From: Lagopus muta
Lineage: Eukaryota; Chordata; Aves; Galliformes; Phasianidae
Length of the DNA: 64,000 nt
Direction of reading: 5' to 3'
Assembly (NCBI RefSeq): GCF_023343835.1
Contig: NC_064443.1
Location: 11,594,001 to 11,658,000, forward strand
In this document: piece by piece, positions 4,018 through 58,663 of the stretch
How positions within the stretch are numbered: position 1 is the stretch's first letter
How the letters are laid out: each line of letters begins with the position of its first letter
Translations under genes and position numbers: made by a program
The notes under the pieces: generated by a model
Told to the model about the DNA's origin: nothing
What the model saw: only the letters and a program-made list of their open reading frames with translations
Database searches by the model: none

Positions 4018-4086
4018 GCGGGAAAAGGCCACGTGCGCCCGCGAGGTTCCGCGGCACCCCCGGAGCGCGGCCTACAGCTCCACGTG
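4018..4086 (-). promoter_or_regulatory. WDR6: Putative WDR6 proximal promoter with two CACGTG E-boxes and an E2F-like site
   Basis: CACGTG occurs at 4030-4035 and again at 4081-4086, each within the same longer match CCACGTGC followed by a purine, 51 bases apart. GCGGGAAA at 4018-4025 resembles an E2F site. The second E-box is part of the last P4HTM codons (Val-His-Val-Glu). WDR6 begins at 3949 and P4HTM ends at 4072, so any WDR6 promoter has to lie in the P4HTM last exon and 3' UTR. The motifs are seen directly; promoter function is inferred. Confidence 0.45.
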
Positions 4087-7000
4087 CACCCCGCTGTACG
4101 TTTTGTCCACGGTCCATTCACCCGGGGCTCCGGCCCCGCTCCCCGCGTAACGCTCCATCTCCTGCTGGAAGCGCTGCTGCCGCCAGCGATTGGGGTCCAC
4201 GTTGATCCAGTTGTTGGCGATCCACTTGGTGCCCTGGGTGACCAGGCAGCCCCCGTGCAGGGCGAAGTCATCCAGCTCCCCCACCCAGCCTGCGGGAGCA
4301 AAGCACGGCTTGCTGCAGGCTGCTGGACACAGCCCGGGCAGCACCGCTGAATGTTGACACCCAATTTTAGCTTGGGGGCTTCTCCCGACGGTCCCTCCTG
4401 ACATCCCCCCTCACCCCACCCTGTCTACACACAGGGGGTTCCCTGGTTGCAGAACAGGCACTGCCTCTGTGCCTCAGCATTTCACATCACAGCTGCCCTT
4501 TTCCTCAACTTTTCCCCAAAGGAGAGGATGGAAGCCAGAGGTTTGAGGCCATACCATACATTATGCGTCACCAGTTCCAACCCTTTATAGAGATCTCAGC
4601 TTTTCTGTGACAGATTTCAGCAGCTTTTTTCCATTTGGGAAGAATTTGGCCATAAAAATTCAACAAGGCTCCTCTGACAGGACAGCAATGGCCCTGATAT
4701 TATCATCCCACAGCCCAAGCAGAGGCCTCGTAACCTCCTCTGTAGCTTTTCTCGAGATGGAAACTCTTGGGCTACTCTCAGGAGACCTGGGACACTACAT
4801 AACTTCATCAGCAGCCGGGAAGGCTGAAGTTAATGCCCCAGCCTGGCTGCCAGGGAAAACCACACAGCACTCTGAGAAGTGCAGCCCGAGGACATCTGTC
4901 ACAGAGCTGCAGTTGCCCCATAGTGCGGCCTCGGCCCCACGTGGGGCACAGCGCAGCGCAGGGCAGGGAGGACCGCGCCTCCCCACACCGCAGAGCTTGC
5001 AGCCATGCTTTTGTCTGCCTCCCCTTTCCATCCCTGTGGGCAACGCCACATCAGTGAAGCATTTTGAATTGCGGCCCAAGCTCCAGCAGAACTTTCAGCT
5101 CACACAGCAGGGTGGAAGGCAGCTGGCGATGGCTCAGTGCAGCCAAGGGCTTTGTTTGCTGGCTAGTTCTGTCCCCCAAAGACACCAGGAGCCACTGACC
5201 CACTGCCTGAGAACAAAGGCCTCCGAGAGCCAGGAAGCTCCTGCTCAGCTGGTGACAGGGAGGCTCTGCACATCCCACTAGCAGGCAGCTACCCCCTTAA
5301 GGTCTCTTCTGAGCCACAGAACCCCTGGAAGATGGTTGTCACCTTCTGCAATGCTAGCAAGACTCAGCCTGGAGCCGTACCTTCTCCGTCCGACAGGTAG
5401 TTGTACCAGAAGACAGCGGTGCCTTGCTGAGGTTTCACTCGCAAATTGCCCTTGTCACAGTTTTTCCGAGTATCTCGCAGATCAACATCATTCTGGATCA
5501 AAGACTAACCAAAATCAACAACAACAACACAGAAGGTGTCATAAAGGGCCTGGAACAAAGCACAGGGGTGCTGTGCTGTGCGTCCTTTTGCCCTGTGCTG
5601 AGTCCCTTAATGCATCACCAGACAGCATGCCTACAGTTATCTTAGTCTGAAGAAAAGTGCCCAGATTAAAGCAAGCACAGCCTGTGTCAAGGCAGCAAGG
5701 TCCAAAGGCTGCCCCTCACGCATTGGAGTGGGGAACTGCCAAAGCCCTGCACCTCCTCCCTTGGCCTCTGAGTGAAATCACTCTGTGAAGCTCAGCCTTC
5801 CCACACGCCAGCTCAGAAGGCTCACATCTCCAAACCCCCCTTCTACAGTGAATACAGTCACAGTGGGACCCAGAACCCCCGAGAAGGACAGAGCCACTCA
5901 CCATCTCTTCGTACGTCCTGTTATCAGCTATAGGAAAGACAGTTTCTCCTCCACCCGTGACATTGTTCAGGTAGAACAGCACTGTCACATACCTGCAGGA
6001 CAGGACAGAGCAGCTGTCAGGGGACACAGCTGGAGCAGGAGGAGCTGCATGGGGCTGCCCATCCCCTGCTGTATGTACAGCACTCCTCCAGGACACCATG
6101 AGACACGCAGTTTACCTTGGTTTTTTTTTTTCCAAAGGCAACAGAGAGTTGCACCAAAGCAGCCCTTACCGGCATGAGGTCTCAAAGGGAGCGCTTTCGT
6201 TGGCAACCAGCTTGGTGTGGCTGCAGGCAGTCTCAGGGAAGACGGGGCCGCTGTCCATGTGGGCATGGTAGTGCCCCCCCTGGTCATAGCGCACGACCTG
6301 CAGGGGCTCACTGTGCTCCACAATCTCTGGGGGCAAGCGAGTCAGGCGCATTACCCTGGGGAGACAGCACTGCAGGTGAGGGGAAGACACATGCACCAGG
6401 ACAGCTGCTACTCCCAAGCACAGAATACATCCAGAGAAAGAGAACCCCCTTCCCCAAAAGACCGGAGAGACGGATGGGCTGCAGCAAGCATGCCAAGAGA
6501 TAACTAGGTTCCTTACAGATCTGTCAGACCATCAGCTCAGAAACTCCTCCTCAAGGTTAATAAAAAAACAAAAACGAAGGGCGCATCTCCAGCAGGACTG
6601 CTCTCATGAAGACCTTGCTTGCTCAGAAAGATCCCTCCTGTGTGTGTCCCTGGAGCCTTCATGTGCCATCTCAGCGCTTCTCTGGACTCCTGCACACCAG
6701 CTACAGACCTCGGGGACAGTTAGCAAAGCACAGGGCCCCTGCTGAGAGTGAACGAGAGACTAGCTCTAGGGATATTCTCATCACCTAACTCACCTTTCCC
6801 TGTTGCCTTGAACAGCCTCCCCCCGGCGCAGAGGGCCACGGAGGGCTCTGGGTTTTTTCCACTGCTACATCTGAGCTCATCCCCAAGGCAAGCAGGTACC
6901 TCTCAAGACCTGCCAAAGAACACTCAGTGCTCTGGCAATTCTGAGCTGTGAAGCCCTAGGGGAATGTGGCACCAAGGCAGGGTGGCCGAGCTCCTCCAGG

Positions 7001-10000
7001 CCCCCCAAGATCCCACTGGGGATCGCAGCCTCCTTCAGCACCACGCCTCCAGGTCTGCAGGGGCTTTCTAACGCTGGCAAACTGAAGAGCATAAATGCGA
7101 TGTGCCGATGCCTGCGTGCGCCAGAGAGCTGGCACAGAGAAAGTGGCAGCCACAGTCTGCTCTAATTAAGGCAATATGCGACCCCATTCTCCCTCTGGAA
7201 TGTGCTGAAGAAAAGGAGTGGCCAGCAGCCGTTCTGCAGCCTCGGGACAGAATTTCCCCACCCATGTCCTGGGTGAGGACCAGCACCACAAGAACGAGGA
7301 GTCTCCAGCCAATTATCTGAAACTCACCACGGCTAAGCCATTTGGCCTGCGAGCTGGGTTAACTCTTCCCAGAACCAAAACCAAGGTGAAGGGAAAGACA
7401 GGAGGTTCTCCCATCTGCTGGGACAGGCCCCGTGGTCATGCGCTCCGATGACTGAACTACCTCGGTGTGCTTGAGATAAAGTCGTGCTTATTATGAAGTT
7501 AGCTCTGAACAGCTACGACAGATCTCAGTGAAATGCATGAGTAACTCAAGCAATTGACAGTAACTACTGGCACCCAGACAGCGTTGGAAATGGGCAGTTT
7601 CTCCCAGTAAGCTCATTTACTAATTAGAATGAATTATTTCACATAATGCCAAGTCTTCTTGGTTTTATAGGGCCGTTCCCAAAAGTGAATGGCTACGCTG
7701 AAAGGTTTGATTTTTCTTTTTCCTTTTCCAGGGGACAATACAAATCCTTGCTCTAACGAAAACCTCCTCTTCCCATTTCACGACTGTGCTCATTGCTCTT
7801 CATACTCCACACTTCCACACAATTAGGAAGTGTGAATATTAGCATGTCTGCATCTGCATCTCCCAGCACAGGTGGCCCACATGCCCACACCCCCTGAGCC
7901 CTCACCTCTGCCGTATGGCTCTCATGACCTGGTGTGCGCCCTCGCCCTGGTACAGCCACGTGTGCTGGCTGTTGCGCACCGCGTCACTCGTCTTCACTTT
8001 CTGGCTCCCTATGTACTTGTGGAAGTCACGGATGTTCAGCCTCTTGAACTCCTCCAAACTCAGCACGCCTGTGGAAGAGAGCAGGAGCAGGCTGACCTGG
8101 GCACCCCACGTGCACGAGGTGATAGAGAACCATCAGTTGCAGCTCAAGGTCAGAACCAGAACAGGCAAAACACAATCAACTTGATACTTACATGTTTAAA
8201 TGCAGCAGAGGGGGACACCTCAGGCCACCTTCCTACAAGACCTTGCAGGGCAATTTAAAAAAAACAAGCCCCAAACAACAAGCAGTACATTCTTCTGCTT
8301 TTGCTGCTTTTGTGCAATTTCAAAACATGAAAGAGATACACAACACAGTACAATCCGATGTAAATAGAAGACAGAAAAACAAAAGGTAAAAGGTTTCTAC
8401 TAGAACAGATATTTCTTGTTTGCACTCAGCTGAGCTTGGCAAGGGATGGATTTTTGCCTCTGTTAGCTTCAGAGAAATCCTTACCGTTTGTTGTGTTCCC
8501 TTTCTGGAGAAGCAGGGAAGCAGCACATGCCAGGGACAGAGAGAGGAGCTCAGGGAGGCAGCAAACACACTGCTGTTTGCGGCCAGGGGGAAAGGCCCAG
8601 CCACCAGGGTCAGCCCAGGGCAGCTCCCCAGGTGCTGGTTGTTGTCAGCAAATCACCCACGTCACTGTTTCTCATGCCCCGCTCACATCTCCCAGTCCCC
8701 ACTTCCCCTTATTTGATAACACAGTGCCACATCCAGGTCGTGACCTGGTCCCTCAGCGGCACGCACCGACGTGACAATGGAGGAAAGCAGCACTCTGGAA
8801 GCAAGGTCCTGCCAAAAGCACTTTAACAGGACTTTTCATTCGTAAACATCCGGAACGGTGGAAAAGCCATTGGCAACTCAGTCATACGCTCCTACCCCTG
8901 CCAAAAATGTCACCAGCGTGGGTGCTCGGGGTGCCCTCCGGATAGTTAGGCATTCACATGGGTACTGTGCCTACTTCATCTCCAAAGCAGCTCCTCTATG
9001 GCACTCTCAATGCCAGGTCACTGGAAGAGAGCATGCACAGCCTGTGCATTCACTTAATTTGATTAGGAAATGGAGAGTTGCTTAATTGAGGACACTCTAA
9101 TTAGAGCAGCAAGGGTTAGAGTGCACGTCCAGGCCAGAGGGAGACCAGGGTAAGGGGAGTAACACAGAGAACAGAGCAGTGGCAGAGATGGAATCAGCAC
9201 TAAAAGCTGACCAAGACCACCCTGAGTCCACCGATGCTGCACCCCTCTGCCAGTGAAGCAGCTCTCTCAGACAGCTGTAAAAGTCCCTTTGAAAGCAGGG
9301 GGGAACACCTTAAGAGCTGCAGCCCACACGATGAGAGCTACATGGTCAGAGCCAGAGCAGCTTCTGAGAGGTCTACACCAATTTTACTTTCTGCTAAGTC
9401 TCTAAAGCAGTGTTATTTTCCTTGGAAGACCATCTGGTACAACAGGCCTGGGCAGGGACACGGTATTTGCTTCTCCCTGCATGGCTGTGTGCGGCGTCCC
9501 CTGCTGAGGACATGGGGATTCCTGAGGAGCTGCTCTTACCATTCCCATCAGGATCAGCCTTGACTGCAGTGTACATCTCTCGGATGTTTTCAGGGGTCAT
9601 CCACCTGCCGTTCCCAAGGCGGGTGTGAGTCAGCACCTGAAATTCAGAAGCAGATTAACACTGGGCACTGGTTTCCAGTACTAATGCAACCCTCACAGTT
9701 TCCTGCTTGAGGCCTGGCCAGCTCTCCTCTGCAGTGCATCAGTCAGCCAGGCGTCAGCACATCTCTGCACACAGACTTGAATGGAGATCATCGGGCAGCC
9801 ACGCTGTGTGGCTGATCTGCATTTTCATTTCCAGTTTAGGTGGTGGCAAATGACTGCTGAAGCTCAGTTAACCAATCCTTAGGCGGATGTGGTACAGCTC
9901 TCAGCAAGCTGTGAACTTCAGAAGCGACATCCTTCTACCTACTCCAATGCATGCTGCCTTGCAGGACAAGGCTGCTGAAGAGCTGTGGACAAGGTGCTCC

Positions 10001-13000
10001 TTATTCCCCTCCCAGGTTTGTTACTGTGGATGATTCTGAAGCCCCATCAGCTGCAGGAGGGCACAGCCAGCTCTGCTGCACAAACTCAGCGTGCTGGGAC
10101 ACACACAAGAAGAAATGCACCCTACCTCTTTGAGCTGCAGCTGCCCATCCTGATTGTGGTCCAGCAGATTGAAGAAATCCATCTGGCTGATTTCTATCAT
10201 TTCCATGGCTTCCTCGTAGTCATCCGTTGGTAGGATCTGGCTCTTCTGCAGCCCCTTCAGCTGTGCCAGATGGATGATGAGTTTGCACTCCTCCTCTGTC
10301 AGGAAGTCTGGAATTTCTGCAGGAAAATGCGAGCAGTAACAGAGTCTGAGGAACTGTTACATTAGGACAAATACTAACAGCAGGCCACTGAAAAGAGAGG
10401 AAAATAGGAAAATTTAGAAACTTCCTACCAAGCCAGGGGGGTAGGACAGTCAAATATATATATCTTTCTACCCGAAGAGCTCTACAACAGCACACATCTC
10501 ACACCTGAGCTCCAGGAGATGGGTATTTTTACAGCAGCCATTCCTCAATGTTTGGATCCCGAGGTCAAGCCCCTTATTTTCTTGCAAATCACCACAATGG
10601 ACAAAGGAGTGAACAAACACAGGCATATCACTGCGTTTTATCACTTCAAAGGTTACATGTGGATCACAGTCTAGAACTGCTGTTTTACAGGAAGGGAGGC
10701 CAGAAGTCCTTACAGGGGAAGCGAGGATGGCTAGGGTTTCATGCTCCTTTGCTCGGCAGCAGAGCAGGCAGCACCTCCCAAACAACCAAACTCCTTCTGG
10801 GGGTACCTAGCACATTGCTCTACTGGGAAACTCAAACAACTTCCTGACTTATTCTCATTCATTCCCTTAAATGAAGGGGGAGGAAGTACAGCCATCGGAG
10901 CAGGACAGGCTTAAGTGAATATGGCTGAGACGGGCTGGATTAGGTGACTTTAAAAGTATTTTCCAGTCTTAATGATTCTGTAAGTGCTTGCAGACACAAA
11001 GTCCTGCTCTCTAAACTGCAGCCCTGCAGGTGTGTGCTGAGGACACATCACATCCCAGCTGCAGCAGCAATCCTCAAAGGGGGAAAGAAAAAATAAAAGT
11101 TAATTACTTCCACGACCTTAAATCAACCCTATCAGCTCCGACTGTCAGTAAGCAGTTGGCCTCTTAAGTGCATACCAGAACTGGCCCTGTAGAAAATGCG
11201 ATGCTCCTGGGAAGCCCCGGGGACACAATGCAGCTGTATCCCTCTGAGGACACAATTTCTGCCACCAGCAAAACAATGTCCTTGTAACAGAGGGGGCTTT
11301 GGGGCCACAGCTTCCGCTGTCCCGAGCGTCACGGCCTCACATCAGGTCAGAGCCAACCATACCCACTGGCAAGCAACAGTCCCAGGATCTCCAGTTCCTC
11401 AAACCGGGCTCAAATAATGACAGCTTCTGGAATCTTAATTACATGCTGGAGGAAGGACAATCCCTCTCTTCAGTGGTGGTAATGGGATTTTGTAACGAGG
11501 TAGAAATTGCATTAGCAGGAAGCGCTTTCTGCCAGGCAGGTTGCAAGGTGAGGGGCTTTCCAGCTAAGAGCTGGCAATCCGCAGTGCAAACAGTCTTCCT
11601 TCCCAGCTGCAAATTGGTTCCTGTGCCCACTGCTCTCCCAAACAGTTAACTTTGGCTGTGAGACCATCCTATCTCTCATCCCGCTCAACAATGGGTCCAG
11701 CTAAACAAATGCCTTCTAATTGACTTTGAGCAACACTTGATTGCTTTCAGAAGAAAAAAAAAAAAAAACAAAAGAGAGGAAAACATTGGGGTTTATGAAA
11801 TAATGACTAATCCTGGAGCAAGAGAAAGGGGCTGGGTTGGAGCACTGGTGTCAAACAGAGAGCCCCAAGACACAGGGCCAAGGCATTCACTCCTCCCCAG
11901 CTGCCCTCATTTCCACACCTGCTGATCTAAGCCAAACCCCTGCTAAAATCCAAACAATCGGGGCCGCTGGCAAACGAAAATTGGAGCATTGTCTTCCCCA
12001 AGAGGGCTCTGAAAGGGCCGCACTTAATGAGGATGGATTGCCACGGAGGTGGCTCGCAGGCTATAAAAGGCGTTCTGCGGGCTGGAGCAGCTCAGTCTGG
12101 GTGTGCTGCGAGCCCACTCCGAGCACCATGAGGGCTGTGAGCACAGAGAAGGCGTCCCGCAGGCGGGGAGCCCCGTGGCTGCCAGGCCTGCTGCTGCGCC
12201 TGCTGCTGTGGGGCAGCCCGGGGGGGCGGGCCAGCTACCTGCGCAGGTCCTCCAGCTGCACCGCCATCCCGCGCAGCATGGCCCTGTGCTACGACATCGG
12301 CTACTCGGAGATGAGGATCCCCAACCTGCTGGAGCACGAGACCATGCCGGAGGTGATCCAGCAGTCCTCCAGCTGGCTGCCCTTGCTGGCCAGGGAGTGC
12401 CATCCCGACGCCAGGATTTTCCTCTGCTCCCTCTTCGCGCCCATCTGCTTGGACAGGTAAGGCATTTGCATGAGCTTGTTCCGCATCGCTCCCCAGCAGC
12501 GATGGCATTTGCCTCCTGAGAGAAAAGACGTGCAATCTGATCACAGCCACTTTCAGGCAGCACAGTGAGGGGACATGGGATTACCCAGCAGGGACTCTCC
12601 CCCCTTCTGAGGGAGAACAGAACTCCCGTCCAATTTCCAGAACAGCCTTTTGTTGCTTGCTTCCCTGCTCCCCCCCCAGGCTCATCTACCCATGCCGCAG
12701 CCTGTGCGAGGCCGTCAAGAGGAGCTGTGCACCCGTCATGGCTTGTTATGGCTACCCCTGGCCTGAAATCCTCAACTGCAACAAGTTCCCTGCAGACCAC
12801 GAGCTGTGCATCGCTGCCGTCTCCACGGATGAAAGTTCCTCCAGCAGGAGAAGTAAGGGCTTTTTTTCTCATATGTTTTCCCATGTGTAATGCTGAATAC
12901 TCACAGGGATGAGCCTATGCCTTGCCTGTGTTCATAGAATGGCTTGGGTTGGAAGGGACCTCAAGGATCATAAAGTTCCAGCCTAGTTCCTAGAGCTTCT

Positions 13001-16000
13001 GGCTTTAAGCTATATTTAAAAAGAAAAGTGGAAATTCTAGTTTTTCCTCTATGGGAACTGCACTGTAACTAGAAAAGGAGTGTGACATTGGCTGAAGCTT
13101 GTTCCCTCAGCTCTGCTCATCACTACCTGGGTGCCCTCAGACAGTGGTGCTTGGGGCAGGGGAGAAGTCTAAAAGACATGGGAGCTCACAGTGCGCCTGT
13201 CCAGGAGGTGAAAAGCAGCAGACATTCACTAAGCAACGTCACGGCAACATGCAGCAATGAACACAGCCTCCACAAAGCACAGCGAGCAGTGCCTGTCCCA
13301 CCGTGAGACTGGGAGCTTAACATTCCTATCCTGGGGCTGGCTAGCTCAGGAGGAAGCACCATTTCAAAACTACAAGCCACCACTCGCAGATGTCAAAACC
13401 GTATGATGCCTTTTCCAGCAACGGGCGTTCTAACCAGCTTTCTGTTGCAGCAGTGCCTCGAGCCAGTTGCAAGGACTGCGAGCTGGAAGAGGCCAGCACC
13501 ACCAGGGAGATCCTGGACAGCCTCTGTGCCAACGATTTCAGTGAGTACACCCACCTGCCCTCCCTGCAGCCAGCACAGCCTCCAGCAGTGAAGCTGTGAC
13601 ACACACAAGAATGGCTTGGCCATAAGAACTGACTTGGAGGAATCACGTCTTTTATAAGCAGGTTGCAGAGATGATCAGTTCTCAGCATACCTGTTAAGTA
13701 ACAGGACTTGCTGCTCGTGGTATTGCTCCTTGGAGGCACTCTGCCCGTGCCACAGTGCTGCTATGCCTTCTGCGCTCATGAGAAAAGCAGGGTGGAAAGA
13801 ACAGTGCTCAGTGCTGGAAGCGCTCAGCTCAGCTGAGAACTTTTCCACAATCACTGCAATTGCACGGGTTTGGGAGGACGTGTCACCACGTTAGAGGAGC
13901 AGCACAAAAGCTATGATGTGTAAACAGAACTAACAGCTCTTTTTCCCCCACTCCAGCAGTGAAAATCCGAATCCTCAGGAAGAACACGACCACAACCGTC
14001 TCCGACTTCGACCTGGACCCCTCCAGGGTGGAGGTGCTGAAGCACGGCCCGCTCCTCAGAACTGAAATCCCAGGCAGGCTGCAGCAGTGGCTGGACATCG
14101 ATGCTACCTGCGCCCACAACATCATGAGAGGCACTCACGCGGGGGTCTTTGTCATCAGCGGAGAAGTGCAGAGTGACAAAGTGGTGGTGAACAAGGCCTA
14201 CGCTTGGCAGAAGAAGAACAGGAACCTGCACCAGGCCGTGCGGAGATGGAAACATCACCGCTGCCCCGAGCAGGCCGGCAGGAAGGTCTGAGATCTTGAT
14301 CCCAATGCTAAGAAATGGCTCCCTTCCCCACAGCTAGAAAACTCCTTCCCCGGGCAGCTGGTGTTTTGGAGACGTACAGTCAGTATTTTTAGGTGAATCA
14401 AAGCAGTCATAGTCAGCAGGTAGGGCCTCACTACAGATCCCTGAGATAACTAAAACCCTTCTCCAGAGGCAGAGCTTAGAGATGCAGACTTAACATATTC
14501 CTACGGCAAGGTCCTGCCAATCCAGGACTTACAATGGATGGCTTTGTGCAGCATCAGTGCCTTGAAATCTGCAGGCGAGCAGACTAGAAGACACCTTCGA
14601 TAACATGGGCATTTGCACAGGTGAAAGGAAACAACCCCTCCTGAGCACACAGCAGACAGCTGAGGATTTCTGCATAACTGGGAATGACCGCTTTTTGACT
14701 TCAGGCATTCAGTTTGGGTCAGAACGTTCTGGTAACCGTGGAGCTACTGAAGATACCCGCAGAGCCTTGAGAGAGGTGGCAACAACACTGGGAATCGCTC
14801 TCACCAGTGAATACAGCCACAGCTCAACATGAGCAGAAAGCAGAAAACTGCAAATCCCCGAGTGAGAAAATGAGTTGGATTTCTACTGTCTAACAAAGCA
14901 CTGCCCATGGAAAGTTTTCTACACTGGATTAAACTTGAGAATGAAATAAAAATGACAGAAAAAATAAAAAAACCACACAGCTCTGGGGATAAATACGTTC
15001 TTCCCTGTGCTCAAAGCCTGCAGCCTCAGTTGTGGAGAGAACCGCCAGCTTTGATGGAGACACATTGCCTCCCTGTGCTCGTAAAGCACAGCAACAACCC
15101 AGCCAAGACTGTCTCTTCAGATTTAACATGGGCTGAGATTAGCACTCACGGCACTCGCACTGCAATTCAGCCGCGCTCTGACATTTGTGTAGCAATTACT
15201 TCTTTTTCCCTGAGGCTCAGAAGAAAAACAGAGAGATTTCCTATTTTTATTCCTCCCCGCTGCCTCGTCTCGCAAACTGCCGCCCGACCCGCAGGGCCTG
15301 CTGCCAGGTGGTCCCTGTGATGGCAGCATCCTCTGAACAGACTGCGTTTTGAAAACACAACAAGTAAAAGCTCTGAAGGTTGAAAAAGGCTTTGTCTGAT
15401 ATTTGTTTTCCATTAATGGGATTATTTGATTACTGGTGTTTCCCAACTAAGCAGCGCACAGATGGTCTGACTTACAAGCTTAGAAATGATGTCTCATAAC
15501 CAGAGGGGGGGAGGGGATGGGGAAACAGGGCAGGGACTTTTTGAGAGCTCCATGAAATACGCTTGGGTTCAATGCAGATGACTTACCCACATTTAAAACA
15601 GCAAACTGTGCGCTCCCTGTGGTGCCCAGCCCCAAAGCGCAGAGCTCCCATTAGGCCATCAGCCAGCTGCCCACAGCCCCACAACACCCTGCTTTGCTGA
15701 AAGCAAAGATCACAGCGCAGCCACTTCTCCCTACAGTGGCTCTCGTTCAGCAAAATCCCCTTCAGGACTTCAAGAGCTCTGCCAGCGACTTCTGGCTTTG
15801 TCTAACACCACCCCATTAAATACACACCTCTGCCAATTTAAACAACAGAGACGTAATAATTGGATTTTAAAACACTTAATTTAGGTCGGTGCTGTTTGCA
15901 TAGATAGAGAGGTCTCTGGAATTCTTTTTAAGTCACAGCTGGCTCCTGGCAGGTCTATCTGGGAGATAAGAGCTGTCTTACGAGTCAAGGTTTCTAAATT

Positions 16001-17339
16001 AGGGCTTCCCTATCAGAGGATAAAGGAGAGCAGTCTGGGTGGAATCTGAAATGCTGCCTACCCAGGGCTGTCCCCAGAGCCAGCATCAGAAGGCACAGCC
16101 TGCCCCAGAAGCTGACAGAGGTGCCTGAGTCATATCAGGGGCTGTGGGATCACTGCTGCCTGTGGGTGCCCTCCTGGAGGCCAGCATCAGTCCAGCAGAG
16201 CAGCACTGGCGGGGCACAGAAGGTTGCAACTGGAGCAGGAAAAACCACTGCCCAGCCTGTGTCATGGGTCTCACAACCAGTACGTGCTCCAGGGCTGAGT
16301 TCAATGAATGTCTGATGGAGAACCTGCTAGAAATGAGCCATGAACACTGCATATGTAGAAATGACAAAACAAATCTGTATATTTCTTGCAGGTACTTACG
16401 GCACTAAAGGAATTTAGTAAGAAAATGCTCTGACCTGTGGCCAGGTTTTCAGTTTGTATAATCGATTCCAAATCAGAGAAAAGCTCAGGTACTGGCAAAG
16501 CATCTCAAGGCCCCCAGCATCATCAGCTCAGAGCCAACAGGTCTGCTCTGCCTTTGCAGTAATACGAGCTCCATCACCAAATTAACCGGTGCATTCCCAG
16601 CGGACTTCCGCAGAACGGGGTGCGGGGCTGGGGCTGCAGGGGCTGCAGGGGCTGCGCTCACCCTAGGGAGCGTCGCAGCGACGCGGGGAAGGCTGCAAAC
16701 CATCAAGAGGGAAACGCGGTGCGGCCGCGCTGCAGAGCAAAGCCAGAGGAGGGCACAAAGCCGGCGGGCACCGGGCACCGACGCCGCCCCGCTTTACCAC
16801 CGCTTAACGCCCCGCGCTCCCGTCCCACCCTCGCGCCCCGCGGTCTCCCCGGGGTCCTCGGCCGCCCGTCCCGCTCTTGGCACGCGGCAGGGACGCGGGC
16901 TCCGATCCGCGGGCACTCACCGAAGAGCGGCGGCTTGAGGCTGAGGGTGCGCACGGCGCGGGTCCGGCCGGGCCCCAGCTCCACCCGCTGCGTGTGGCCC
17001 ACCTGCGGGGAGAGCGGCGGTGAGCCGGGGCCCGCCCCGCCCCGAGCCCCGCGCCCGGCCCCGCGGCCTTGCCTTGATGCCCTCGAGGCGCGGCAGGGCG
17101 CGGGCGGGCGGCGGCGGAGGCGGCGGAGAAGCGGCGGCGGAGGCGGGGGGGCCGCCGCCGGCGTCGCCGGCGCTGAGGTGGACGAAGAGCAGCAGCCCCA
17201 GCACGTTGAGGACGTAGAGGTGAGCGAAGACCATGAGCACGAGGAAGTAGGGCCGCGAGCACACGGGCCGCGGGCGGCCCCCCGGCGGGCCGGGCAGCGG
17301 GGGACTCTCCGCCCGCGCCGCCGCCGCCGCAGCCGCCAT
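4072..17339 (-). CDS. P4HTM: P4HTM, transmembrane prolyl 4-hydroxylase
   Basis: Nine exons: 17339-17073, 17002-16921, 10316-10126, 9636-9540, 8068-7906, 6355-6170, 5992-5902, 5504-5381 and 4289-4072. Together they encode 472 residues (human 502). P4HTM is an ER type II membrane enzyme of the Fe(II)/2-oxoglutarate dioxygenase class, reported to hydroxylate HIF-alpha. A cytosolic Ala/Pro-rich tail is followed by one membrane span at about residues 31-53. Two canonical EF-hand loops start at D169 ([12 protein letters not shown]) and D208 (DPDGNGVLSLEE). The catalytic domain keeps the iron ligands H299 and D301 (HAHMD) and H412, and the 2-oxoglutarate lysine K422, ten residues after that histidine as in the human enzyme. 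N-glycosylation sequons are at N339 and N353. The first intron is a 70-base GC-AG intron. Intron 2 (6.6 kb) hosts an antisense SFRP-type gene. The gene ends almost on top of WDR6. Confidence 0.95.
4290..10125 (-). other. P4HTM: P4HTM introns 3 to 8
   Basis: The spaces between exons 3 and 9 are 10125-9637, 9539-8069, 7905-6356, 6169-5993, 5901-5505 and 5380-4290. All have GT donors and AG acceptors. I saw no further exon, RNA gene or clear repeat in them beyond a short run of T at about 6121-6132 next to exon 6. The open frames in these introns match nothing I know. Confidence 0.6.
10928..10985 (+). repeat. CR1 LINE remnant, 3' end
   Basis: The stretch from GGGCTGGATTAGGTGACTT to the end in TGATTCTGTAA follows the usual 3' tail of avian CR1 elements, which ends in copies of ATTCTATG. 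It is diverged and only tens of bases long, in plus orientation, lying in P4HTM intron 2. Confidence 0.65.
11808..11813 (+). promoter_or_regulatory. TAATCC (K50-type homeodomain) site upstream of the SFRP-like gene
   Basis: TAATCC lies about 285 bases before the predicted start of transcription. This hexamer is the core bound by OTX and Goosecoid-type homeodomain proteins. A single six-base match is weak. It is recorded because an antisense match, GGATTA, also lies downstream of the gene at 15419-15424. Confidence 0.25.
12062..12098 (+). promoter_or_regulatory. Core promoter of the SFRP-like gene: TATA box plus initiator
   Basis: TATAAAAG at 12062-12069 is followed at the canonical distance by TCAGTCT at 12092-12098, which fits the initiator consensus YYANWYY with its A at 12094. 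This predicts a 34-base 5' UTR before the start codon at 12128. It marks the nested gene as having its own focused promoter, unlike the CpG-island promoters of its neighbours. Confidence 0.8.
12128..14291 (+). CDS. Secreted Frizzled-related protein, sizzled/crescent type, nested antisense in P4HTM
   Basis: Four exons: 12128-12456, 12680-12852, 13451-13540 and 13957-14291, giving 308 residues, the usual SFRP length. An N-terminal hydrophobic stretch (about residues 19-29) looks like a signal peptide. A Frizzled cysteine-rich domain spans C44 to C153 (motifs [49 protein letters not shown]). A netrin-like domain starts at C174 and ends around C300 (motif [15 protein letters not shown], then RWKHHRC). 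SFRPs bind Wnts; the crescent and sizzled branch also includes inhibitors of BMP1/Tolloid proteases. The netrin part resembles that branch more than SFRP1/2/5, in my memory of the sequences; I cannot choose between sizzled and crescent. There are 11 cysteines in the Frizzled domain, not 10, and one netrin cysteine is missing relative to SFRP2. The start was chosen from the TATA box and signal peptide. No homologue is known to me at the human P4HTM locus. Confidence 0.9.
12931..12996 (-). repeat. CR1 LINE remnant, 3' end
   Basis: CATAGAATGGCTTGGGTTGG and the following GAAGGGACCTCAAGGATCAT are the reverse complement of the CR1 3' tail, so the element lies in minus orientation. It sits in intron 2 of the SFRP-like gene, just past exon 2. 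Confidence 0.85.
14292..14980 (+). terminator. 3' UTR and poly(A) signals of the SFRP-like gene
   Basis: AATAAA is present at 14945-14950 and again at 14963-14968, about 655 to 675 bases past the stop. No earlier AATAAA was noticed after 14291, so a 3' UTR of roughly 0.7 kb is likely. The whole transcription unit therefore fits inside the P4HTM intron. Confidence 0.6.
15850..16026. promoter_or_regulatory. Possible intronic enhancer: homeodomain, FOX and GATA motif cluster
   Basis: Within about 180 bases there are TAATTGGATTTTA (15857-15869), CACTTAATTTAGG, TGTTTGC (15893-15899, Forkhead core), GATAGA, AGATAAG (15964-15970, GATA) and TATC followed by GGATAAAG (16011-16025). This is an AT-rich block set between more GC-rich surroundings in P4HTM intron 2. 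It lies about 1.5 kb past the end of the SFRP-like gene, which is a plausible target. The assignment rests on motif density only. Confidence 0.3.
17003..17072 (-). other. P4HTM: P4HTM intron 1: a 70-base GC-AG intron
   Basis: Exon 1 ends ...GGC ATC AAG and the intron begins GCAAGG, with no GT option that keeps the protein in frame at the conserved Ile-Lys/Val-Gly-His junction. The acceptor is a normal CCGCAG. The rest of the donor (AAG before, AAG after the GC) matches the strong consensus typical of functional GC donors. Confidence 0.8.
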
Positions 17340-17366
17340 CGCGCCCCGGCCCGCCAGGCCCCGCGC

Positions 17367-17380
17367 GTCACCACGGCAAC
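17367..17380 (-). promoter_or_regulatory. P4HTM: RFX X-box next to the P4HTM start codon
   Basis: GTCACC, two spacer bases and GGCAAC give a perfect match to the X-box consensus GTNRCC(0-3)RGYAAC bound by RFX factors. It lies 28 bases upstream of the P4HTM start codon. Its binding is inferred from the motif. Confidence 0.5.
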
Positions 17381-17391
17381 CGCGCGGCGCG

Positions 17392-17399
17392 TTACGTCA
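17392..17399 (-). promoter_or_regulatory. P4HTM: CRE-like (CREB/ATF) site in the P4HTM promoter
   Basis: The minus strand reads TGACGTAA, a common CREB/ATF and PAR-bZIP site, 12 bases from the X-box. Confidence 0.45.
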
Positions 17400-17521
17400 T
17401 CGCGGCGGGGGCGTGGCCGGCGCGCGCGCGGCGGGAAAGAGACACGTGCGGCGCGAGGGGGGGCGGCGCGTCTCCAAGGCCAAGGAAGAGCCGGGACGCG
17501 TCCGAAGTGAAAAAGTCACAA

Positions 17522-20500
17522 TTTATTGCAAATAAACCGAGGGAGCGCGTCTGGCAACCGGCTCCCGGGCGGTTTCCGCCGCCCCCGCCCCCATCCGGTG
17601 CCCGCAAAGAGAAGAGAGGAGGAAAGAGATTCGCAGCCCTCCTGCGGCGTGTGCGGCTACGCGGCAGCCTCCTCCGGCACTGTCCCGCGACCTCAACCGG
17701 AGCGGGGCGAGTAAACGAACTCCCAGAACCAGTGCCTCATTTAAAAATAAAGTTCTATTTTTCACCTGCTTAAAAAGTCTAAAATGTAGAGTGCGAGGCT
17801 ATAATACAGAAACCTCCTGCTGCCCCCGGCCCTACGCGAGGACAGAGCAGCAGTCATGCAGTTTATGTTATCAGTAAAAAAGTTTTTGTTACAGTCTGGG
17901 AAGCCTGAGGACCATCAGAGGTGAGGCAGCCAAAGCGAAACACGAGCAAAGCTGAAACAAAGAGCGCCGGATGCACGGATGGAGAGATGGCAGGCGGGCA
18001 GGGGGAGACAAACGCAGAAAGGAAAAGAGCAAACATTCCACATCTGTAGCAGTAATGCATCAAAGGGAATTTTATGCCTCTGAATGAATGGCTCCTGAGC
18101 CACTGAGCACCTATGGTCACATAGCCCTGCTGACTCGAATAGGGCTGTGTACCCGTTAGAAGGGAAAAAAACTTAGCCTTGTCTGTCGGTACTGCAACTC
18201 CTTCCTGTTGTTGCCTTTCAAGCAGTGCCACTTTACACAAAGAGCCAATGCTCCCTGTGCTCTGCAGGTTCTGTCCTGGAGTTTGTAACTCTGCATGACA
18301 TCGATACAGCAGTCACCCTGCCTGGGCTGCAACAGCAACAAAGTGCTGTTGTTTTCCCAGAGAGCATGGAAATGGGATTTGTGTCTGCAAACCAGGACAA
18401 CCACCACCCTAAGAAAGGGTGTGATTTGTTTGAAAGCAAACAGCACTGCTGGCTAAAGCTTCAGAAATTCTGAAAGAATTAAGGGGCACTCAGTGCAACA
18501 TGTAGCACTGTTCCTCAGCCAACATCTCAGCAGTCTGTTCAGCACATTTGGCCACTGCTACATAGTCCAGTTTTTCTACAAACAAGGATTCATGGCAAAG
18601 CATTTTGTGGGGGCAATGGAGAGAGGCAAAGAGGAGGTGGAGAGAGACAAAACCCCATTCTAGTATAGCTCAAAGCCTGGCAATTATGTAAGAGAGTGAG
18701 AGCTCTTTGGGATTAGGAAACACCAAGTATCTGTTCTGCAGAGACCGGGCATTATGCTAGTTACATTTAAACAACAAGAACACCAGCTTTTATCCAGATT
18801 ATTTGCAGGCTAAAATCTTCAAAGAACAGTTTAAATGTTAGCTCAACACACTGCAAACTGCTGGGTCTCAGCAAGCTCTCCCCTGAGCTACTTCTTGCTC
18901 TGTGTCCCAAATTTTGACAAGCATTTAGGAGGAGGAGAGAAAGGTACATTTGACCAATCTCTGGAATATATGCTGAGCAGGGCACCAAGATGCTGCTGCT
19001 GGGAGCAGAGGAGGGAATGAAGAATTCAGGAGGCAGTAGCTGGAGCAAGGACATACCTACCCCATGGCTTCAGCCCAGATGGGAGCCAAAACAGCCCAGA
19101 GCAGAAACATAAGAGACCTTGTACAGGTGCTGCTTCTGTTCCTATCCCTGCTCCACTGCCAGCAGCGCTTTGGCGGCACGTTCCTGAGGAGACATCCGAC
19201 AGCAGGGAGGGGAGATGGAAAGAGCAAGGCCTCTCAGATGGAAATTTTCCACCACGAACAAGCATGGCCACAGGATTAGCTTTGGTGGCAGCTATTTTCT
19301 TAAACCAAGCATCTCTTGTTCAAATCCATCTGCCCAATTACACATGCTGCAAAAACTTGGCTCACACATCTCAGGTACATGAGAAAGGCTCCAACAGCAG
19401 TTAGCTTATTTGGACATGCACAAATTTGGTACTTTTTCCCCTTCAGTTTAACCTTTGTCAAGTGAAATTGTATAACAACAACACAAAGGGATGCATCAAA
19501 GGTTACGCTTCCACATACAGCATGGAAGAGAACCCCACAAGTCCCCCACAGAAGTGATTTCCTCAAAGCAGTCACTCCAGCTTCACCTTCACTGGCTGTG
19601 TACAGCGTGCTCCTGGTGCAGGTGACATACATGCTTGTGAAATCTTAACACGTGGCCTGCTTCCTATAGCAAAGAGGCAAGCATCAGCATTTAATGAACC
19701 TTTTTCATGTTAACCTCTACTAAGATGAACTAGGCTTTCATAATTTTATTTTACTGTATATTTTACATTAGAAAAAAGAATGTTAATAAAAAAGCTCCAC
19801 ATGCTCCTAGCAATCATTTTTCTGCTAAGTTCCCACCAGTATTGATACTAATATACAAATAAATTAATTTTGCAAGTTAATTGTCTGCCTGGCTTGGTGC
19901 AGACTCTGCACAACCAGTGCATCTGTATTTTAGTGCCTGTCCAACACGTGCCAGGGAGTTGTACATAATATTTGCTCCTCATAAAGTAGCGGAGTTCAGT
20001 TTCATATCAATTAATGGGATCAAATTTTTCTCAACCATGTCACCCAGCAGGCACAAATATTCTTTACCAGATTGCATGGCACTGTTATGACATGGATTGT
20101 TTCACTCTGCAAAAGCCCCAAGCCTTGATAACATCTGTACGCTACTATTCCCTCATCACTCACTTTGGCAATACAACACCCTCCCCACAAAAACAAGTAA
20201 AGCAAAAAATCTATATGGAAGACCTAAAATTTATCAAATGCAGAATCTGACCTGGCTTAGCAATAACCTGCTCTCCCCCCTGCAATTCCTCTGCTTGTTT
20301 TCGTTTGTGTAGCAAGATTTTGCACAGCTGATATTCAAGAAGAGACGTCACATTAATCAGACTAAGTCACAGACACTGCTGGTACTGCCAGATCAGACAC
20401 AGCAGCAGCCATTCTTAGCACCAGCCACTCTCCTCATGCAATGCCAATGCTACAATGTCCTGGCTAAAGGAGCATCAGGAAATCTACGTGAGTTATTTTG

Positions 20501-48000: not shown

Positions 48001-48636
48001 TAATCACATCCCTGTCTGTGTCACCCCAGCCCGTAATCCCGGGATCATCTTCAGCCGCTTCCTCGCACACACGGCGGGCACAGCTCTCTGCTTCCTTCCC
48101 CGCCGAGATTTCCGACGGGATTTTTTCATCCCAAGAGTGAGAAGGCAGGACGGCAGCCCCCAGTTTCCTTGTACAGCAGACAGCAGGGATCCGCAGCCAC
48201 ACCGCATCCCCGGGAATCCGCCCGCCCCCCAAACGCCCCAGGCTTTGTTCGTTCCCCCGTGCCGGCCCTAACGCGAGGGCTTCCCTCCTTCCCGGCCTAC
48301 TATCCCTCGTACCAAGTTACCTCACGCGTGCCCACACGAGCCTGCCTCCCTCCCCCCGCTCGCAGCGCCCTATGAGGGAGCAGAGCGCAGTTTAAGCCTC
48401 CCCAGCCCCTCGCCGCGGGTGCAGGAATGGCCCCGCACGCCGCCGTCGGGACGTCGCGGCCACCCCACCGTCACCCCCCGCCCGGGGCAGCGCCGAGGCG
48501 ACAGCGGCCCTCCGCCCAGCTCGGTCCCGCCCGGCTGGGGCAGCCGCTCCCCGCTCACCACCCCCCGCCGGTCCCGCGGGCCGGGCGGCACGCTGCGGGC
48601 GCTCCGCTCCCCGCGGCTCGGCGGCCCCGCACTTAC
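45010..48636 (-). other. ARIH2: ARIH2 intron 1
   Basis: This 3.6-kb intron lies in the 5' UTR. It has a TA-repeat patch near 46077-46088 and rising GC towards 48.2 kb. No coding sequence, RNA gene or transposon was recognised. Confidence 0.5.
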
Positions 48637-48730
48637 CGGCGGCGCGGCGGGCGGGGGAGGCAGGGAGCGGCACCCCGGGCTCCTCCTGCCGGGCCGCCGC
48701 CGCCTGCGCGCCGGAAGCTCCGACCTCCAC
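48637..48730 (-). other. ARIH2: Predicted non-coding exon 1 of ARIH2
   Basis: A strong donor (CCG before GTAAGT) sits at 48637/48636 in the CpG island on the minus strand, correctly oriented to splice onto the exon 2 acceptor at 45009. The 5' limit of this exon is a guess. Confidence 0.5.
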
Positions 48731-49080
48731 TCTCCGTCACTTCCGCCGGGCGGGGCCGCGGTCTCCGGGCTGCACCACTGCCGCGGGCCGCGGGAGGTGG
48801 GGACGGCGGAACCGCCGGGGCGGGGAAGCGGGAGCGAGACGGGGGGCTTCCGCTCGGCGCCCTCGCGAGCCGGTGACGCGCGGCGGCCGCGTCGGTGCCG
48901 GCGCCGGATGGGACGCCCGCCCCGCGCCCGCCTCGCTCCCGCCCGCCCCGCGTCCCCCCCGCGTCCCAGCGTGCCGCGCGGCCCGGCACTGGGGTAAAGG
49001 TCGCGGCGCGGAGGGGCGGCGCTCTCTCGGTGGGGACGCTGCTCTCCGGTTCTGTTTCGCGCCCCTCGTCGACTGTCGCC

Positions 49081-58663
<9,583 letters not shown>

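Follow-up and report, generated by a model that had tools for sequence, protein, structure and literature searches.

Members of the sizzled/crescent subgroup of Secreted Frizzled-related proteins (SFRPs) are described from frog, chicken and zebrafish but not from mammals (PMC8417734). Sizzled from frog and zebrafish and crescent from frog are named as Tolloid inhibitors (PMC8753366), but zebrafish Sfrp5 does so too (PMC3639276), and Tolloid inhibition is therefore not confined to this subgroup. Crescent has been named as a Wnt antagonist of the hypoblast in chick embryos (PMC1852305), and the chick gene is cited to Pfeffer et al. 1997 (PMC6886504, PMC1852305). Eight disulphides have been listed for sizzled (Szl), and its inter-domain disulphide is said to have no counterpart in other SFRPs except crescent; of three residues tested by mutagenesis, Glu44 and Asp92 are needed for BMP-1 inhibition and Phe94 matters too, and Lys26, Glu133 and Asp138 were proposed from docking (PMC9437010). 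Genes of the SFRP1/2/5 subgroup have three exons and those of SFRP3/4 have six (PMC8417734).

We analysed a window of 64,000 nucleotides from Lagopus muta (the whole stretch of DNA; all positions are counted from its first letter) and found a complete four-exon SFRP gene running from 12062 to approximately 14985 on the plus strand, embedded in intron 2 of P4HTM, which is encoded on the minus strand (Table 1). The initial annotation had described a complete gene with a Frizzled and a netrin domain, nested antisense in a P4HTM intron of 6.6 kb, and each of these points was borne out: the TATA box and initiator lie 30 bases apart, the exons are open and in phase and are followed by poly(A) signals, both domains were recovered, and the whole gene falls inside the host intron.

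Table 1. Features of the nested gene and of its host, P4HTM
Feature	Position	Strand	Remarks
TATA box TATAAAAG, nested gene	12062..12069	+	pattern match, predicted function
Initiator-like TCAGTCT, probable transcription start	12092..12098	+	begins 30 bases after the TATA box start
Coding exon 1: signal peptide (judged by eye), beginning of the Frizzled CRD	12128..12456	+	
Coding exon 2: remaining CRD and linker	12680..12852	+	
Coding exon 3: first part of the netrin domain	13451..13540	+	NAGNAG acceptor, 13451 or 13454
Coding exon 4: netrin domain, stop codon TGA at 14289-14291	13957..14291	+	NAGNAG acceptor, 13957 or 13960
3' UTR	14292..14985	+	inferred, end approximate; AATAAA at 14945 and 14963
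P4HTM coding exon 1 (17339-17073), intron 1 and coding exon 2 (17002-16921)	16921..17339	-	CpG-rich
P4HTM intron 2, host intron, 6,604 bases	10317..16920	-	
P4HTM exon 3 to stop codon TAG (4074-4072)	4072..10316	-	coding pieces read; exon ends partly approximate

The nested gene has a TATA box, an initiator-like site, GT-AG introns in phases 2, 1 and 1, and two AATAAA signals, near which an ATTAAA also occurs at 14928. The octamer TATAAAAG is present six times in the 64 kb, with four copies on the plus strand and two on the minus strand, so by itself it says little for a promoter. The predicted product has 308 residues. Both of the last two introns end in CAGCAG (13448-13453 and 13954-13959), and all four combinations of acceptors leave the frame open, giving 308, 307, 307 and 306 residues. 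Isoforms of 306 to 308 residues, all in frame, are therefore possible.

A stretch at 12934-12990, within the second intron of the nested gene, was recognized by eye as CR1-like; presumably it corresponds to the 3' end of a bird CR1 element, in keeping with the avian origin of the window. Searches for other elements gave little. Rfam returned no matches over 9000-18000, and the 9 direct repeat families and 17 inverted pairs found over the same interval included none attributable to the nested gene. Tandem repeats filled 11 rows across the whole window, none of them within 12062-14985. Bacterial-type scans of 11800-12200 found no promoter-like sites and one terminator-like site (0.5 expected), but they use a bacterial model that is inapplicable to this genome. 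The frog sizzled promoter is described as having Smad1 and Ventx sites (TCTG, TAAATT), which are too short for pattern testing (PMC9654134, excerpt).

Pfam placed an Fz domain at residues 47-149 of the nested protein (E 2e-27) and, up to E 1, returned nothing else, the netrin model included. The netrin-like domain is instead evidenced by alignment to solved chains of Xenopus sizzled, 7EL5 and 5XGP, which match residues 41-301 at E 4.8e-79 and 8.8e-79, values that exclude chance. Among the matches listed (60 of 70), Frizzled CRDs scored 5.6e-27 or weaker and the SFRP3 CRD 1.2e-18. A hydrophobic N-terminal stretch, judged by eye in the translation, is plausible as a signal peptide. A scan of viral contigs for relatives gave two pattern matches, neither of which was confirmed by tblastn.

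The nested protein and Xenopus laevis sizzled share the arrangement of a CRD followed by a netrin domain and are identical at 117 of 258 positions (45.3%). All 16 cysteines within the alignment agree, so each of the eight listed Szl disulphides has partners in the nested protein. The ten CRD cysteines of SFRPs align with Szl, as does an extra one, C132. The Szl inter-domain pair 115-156 corresponds to C132-C174, which would form the equivalent bond.

We read the nested gene as an intact member of the third SFRP subgroup and, with a probability of about three in four, as the orthologue in birds of chick crescent. The choice of crescent over sizzled comes from comparison with the sizzled sequence alone. 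Three differences from frog sizzled point this way. The nested protein is 45.3% identical to frog sizzled, below the 52% given for zebrafish against frog sizzled (PMC9437010, excerpt), although the two figures may cover different lengths. Of the three residues tested for BMP-1 inhibition, Glu44 and Asp92 are retained (E61 and D109 here) but Phe94 is Leu111. At the docking sites Lys26 is replaced by Ser, Glu133 by His and Asp138 by Ala, and the neighbouring Asp134 is Glu. Chick crescent, likened here by description, belongs likewise to this SFRP subgroup. The title of the original chick report gives crescent a Frizzled-like CRD.

The gene could instead be the avian sizzled orthologue and so encode a BMP-induced feedback inhibitor of BMP1/Tolloid proteases, a reading that we regard as unlikely. 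Xenopus sizzled is the best solved relative among the matches listed (60 of 70), and the two proteins have all 16 cysteines in common. In addition, the retained Glu44 falls at a site that is Lys, Asn and Arg in SFRP1, SFRP2 and SFRP5, respectively, in the human sequences reconstructed by hand for this comparison. Asp92 does not discriminate, because it is also present in the reconstructed SFRP1 and SFRP5. The best match cannot decide the matter either, since sizzled was the only full-length subgroup member among the matches listed (60 of 70). Against the sizzled reading stand the loss of Phe94, which mutagenesis found important, and an identity to frog sizzled lower than that given for the zebrafish protein. 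Szl and Crescent are both listed for fish, amphibians, reptiles and birds in the excerpt of PMC9437010, and a separate bird sizzled may therefore exist.

Turning to the host, the coding sequence of P4HTM opens at 17339. The last base of exon 2 is 16921, followed by a GTGAGT donor, and exon 3 starts at 10316, which fixes intron 2 at 16920-10317; other coding pieces were read at 9636-9541, 8066-7905, 6354-6169 and 5991-5902 on the minus strand. P4HTM intron 1 (17003-17072) is apparently only 70 bases long and has GC-AG splice ends, with a GCAAGG donor after an AAG codon and the acceptor CCCCGCAG, and exons 1 and 2 join in frame across it.

The neighbours were read by eye from open frames and named by us, as was P4HTM, on our own assumption of their identity: WDR6 (minus strand, below approximately 3900), ARIH2 (minus strand, with pieces from 44911, 30023 and 22930) and SLC25A20 (plus strand, from 49081). 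We take the order in the window to be that of human 3p21.31, SLC25A20-ARIH2-P4HTM-WDR6. A CpG-rich stretch at 48200-49200 (observed/expected ratio 1.03) covers the start codon of SLC25A20 (49081) and, on the opposite strand, is upstream of ARIH2. It is probably a shared two-way promoter of these two genes.

The exons of the nested gene are complementary to P4HTM intron 2 only, judged by coordinates with the P4HTM exons as modelled, which leaves no overlap between the coding exons of the two genes. The initial annotation had suggested that the two transcription units might interfere. Such regulatory nesting, in which the nested gene and P4HTM would impede each other's transcription as the latter is read through intron 2, strikes us as very unlikely. 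The opposite strands and the complete embedding of one gene in an intron of the other are in its favour. So too is the difference between the two start regions: the CpG observed/expected ratio is 1.1 over 16900-17500, at the P4HTM start, versus 0.23 over 11600-12050, upstream of the nested gene with its TATA box. Ratios of about 1.1 are typical of broadly active genes, and a ratio of 0.23 together with a TATA box is typical of tissue-restricted genes. This contrast suggests different control of the two promoters, and no more than that. Mature mRNAs as modelled cannot pair, because the nested exons face only intron sequence, and opposite-strand nesting within introns is in any case common in vertebrates.

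The assignment to the third SFRP subgroup was also examined with trees. We aligned the nested protein with sizzled and five human SFRPs reconstructed by hand, and in the resulting seven-row tree the nested protein joined sizzled with support of 99/95, although the program warned of long branches meeting. Support was 100/100 when SFRP3 and SFRP4 were left out (five rows) and again 100/100 for the netrin part alone, both with the reconstructed human rows; a tree of the CRD alone left its five relevant rows without resolution. In the trees with reconstructed human rows, the nested protein grouped apart from both SFRP1/2/5 and SFRP3/4. The initial annotation had called the protein sizzled/crescent-type, an assignment that the inter-domain cysteine pair and these trees uphold, and had named a tree placing it in SFRP1/2/5 as the outcome that would count against it. 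No such placement was seen among the seven rows, five of them reconstructed.

The architecture of SFRP1, SFRP2 and SFRP5 is the same as that of the nested protein, and their CRDs, in the reconstructed human proteins, are 55-65% identical to it. Their netrin parts, by contrast, are only 20-23% identical, and the reconstructed rows are without the inter-domain cysteine pair. For the CRD, identities were 74/114 to reconstructed human SFRP5, 68/113 to reconstructed SFRP1 and 65/114 to sizzled. For the netrin part with the linker they were 52/141 to sizzled versus 33/143, 30/142 and 28/139 to reconstructed SFRP5, SFRP1 and SFRP2. The four coding exons of the nested gene also differ from the counts given for SFRP1/2/5 and for SFRP3/4. 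That the gene is a misnamed member of SFRP1/2/5, for example SFRP5, is thus extremely improbable despite a CRD nearer to SFRP5 than to sizzled: we reject it on the netrin part, on the cysteines (the nested protein has the extra C132 and, judged against the reconstructed rows, is without one cysteine, the second, of the pair found in the netrin domain of SFRP1/2/5) and on the trees, both those built from all columns and that of the netrin part, and the exon count of four rather than three also speaks against it.

Much of the find is ordinary, because chickens, frogs and fish are known to have genes of this type, which mammals lack. Neither the gene type nor its absence from mammals is new to the literature, as excerpts of PMC6886504 and PMC8417734 make clear. 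The nested position was not found in open-licence papers, but it is probably already visible in public genome annotation. In the available text, PMC10229596 pairs P4HTM with the word "crescent" only by way of goat breeds and the Fertile Crescent, and the excerpts of PMC1847705, PMC2757023 and PMC3616094 contain nothing on the nested gene.

It had also been proposed that mammals lost the gene from the P4HTM intron. The loss itself agrees with the crescent remnants that human and mouse are reported to carry as a unitary pseudogene; as for the place, the excerpted text of that paper does not state a location (PMC6886504). A wider scenario seems to us distinctly unlikely: bony vertebrates would have had crescent in P4HTM intron 2 ancestrally, antisense embedding would link the times at which the two genes are active in the early embryo, and crescent in mammals would have been silenced where it stood, with its remnant kept in the same intron.

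The gene, its domains and its location are shown directly; its expression and its Wnt and Tolloid activities may be supposed by analogy with its relatives. The gene would be transcribed from a TATA-type promoter of its own, on the strand opposite P4HTM, and would end at its own poly(A) signals; the secreted product would have its Frizzled CRD and netrin domain locked together by the inter-domain disulphide. Early embryonic cells, which for crescent are those of the hypoblast, would secrete it. The CRD would then bind Wnts, as in relatives, and a loop carrying Asp109 might hold back BMP1/Tolloid proteases, with the result that chordin would last longer.

A gene for a putative Wnt/Tolloid inhibitor, absent from mammals, is now fixed in position inside P4HTM. 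This intron provides a single place in which to seek both a mammalian remnant and the orthologue in other vertebrates.
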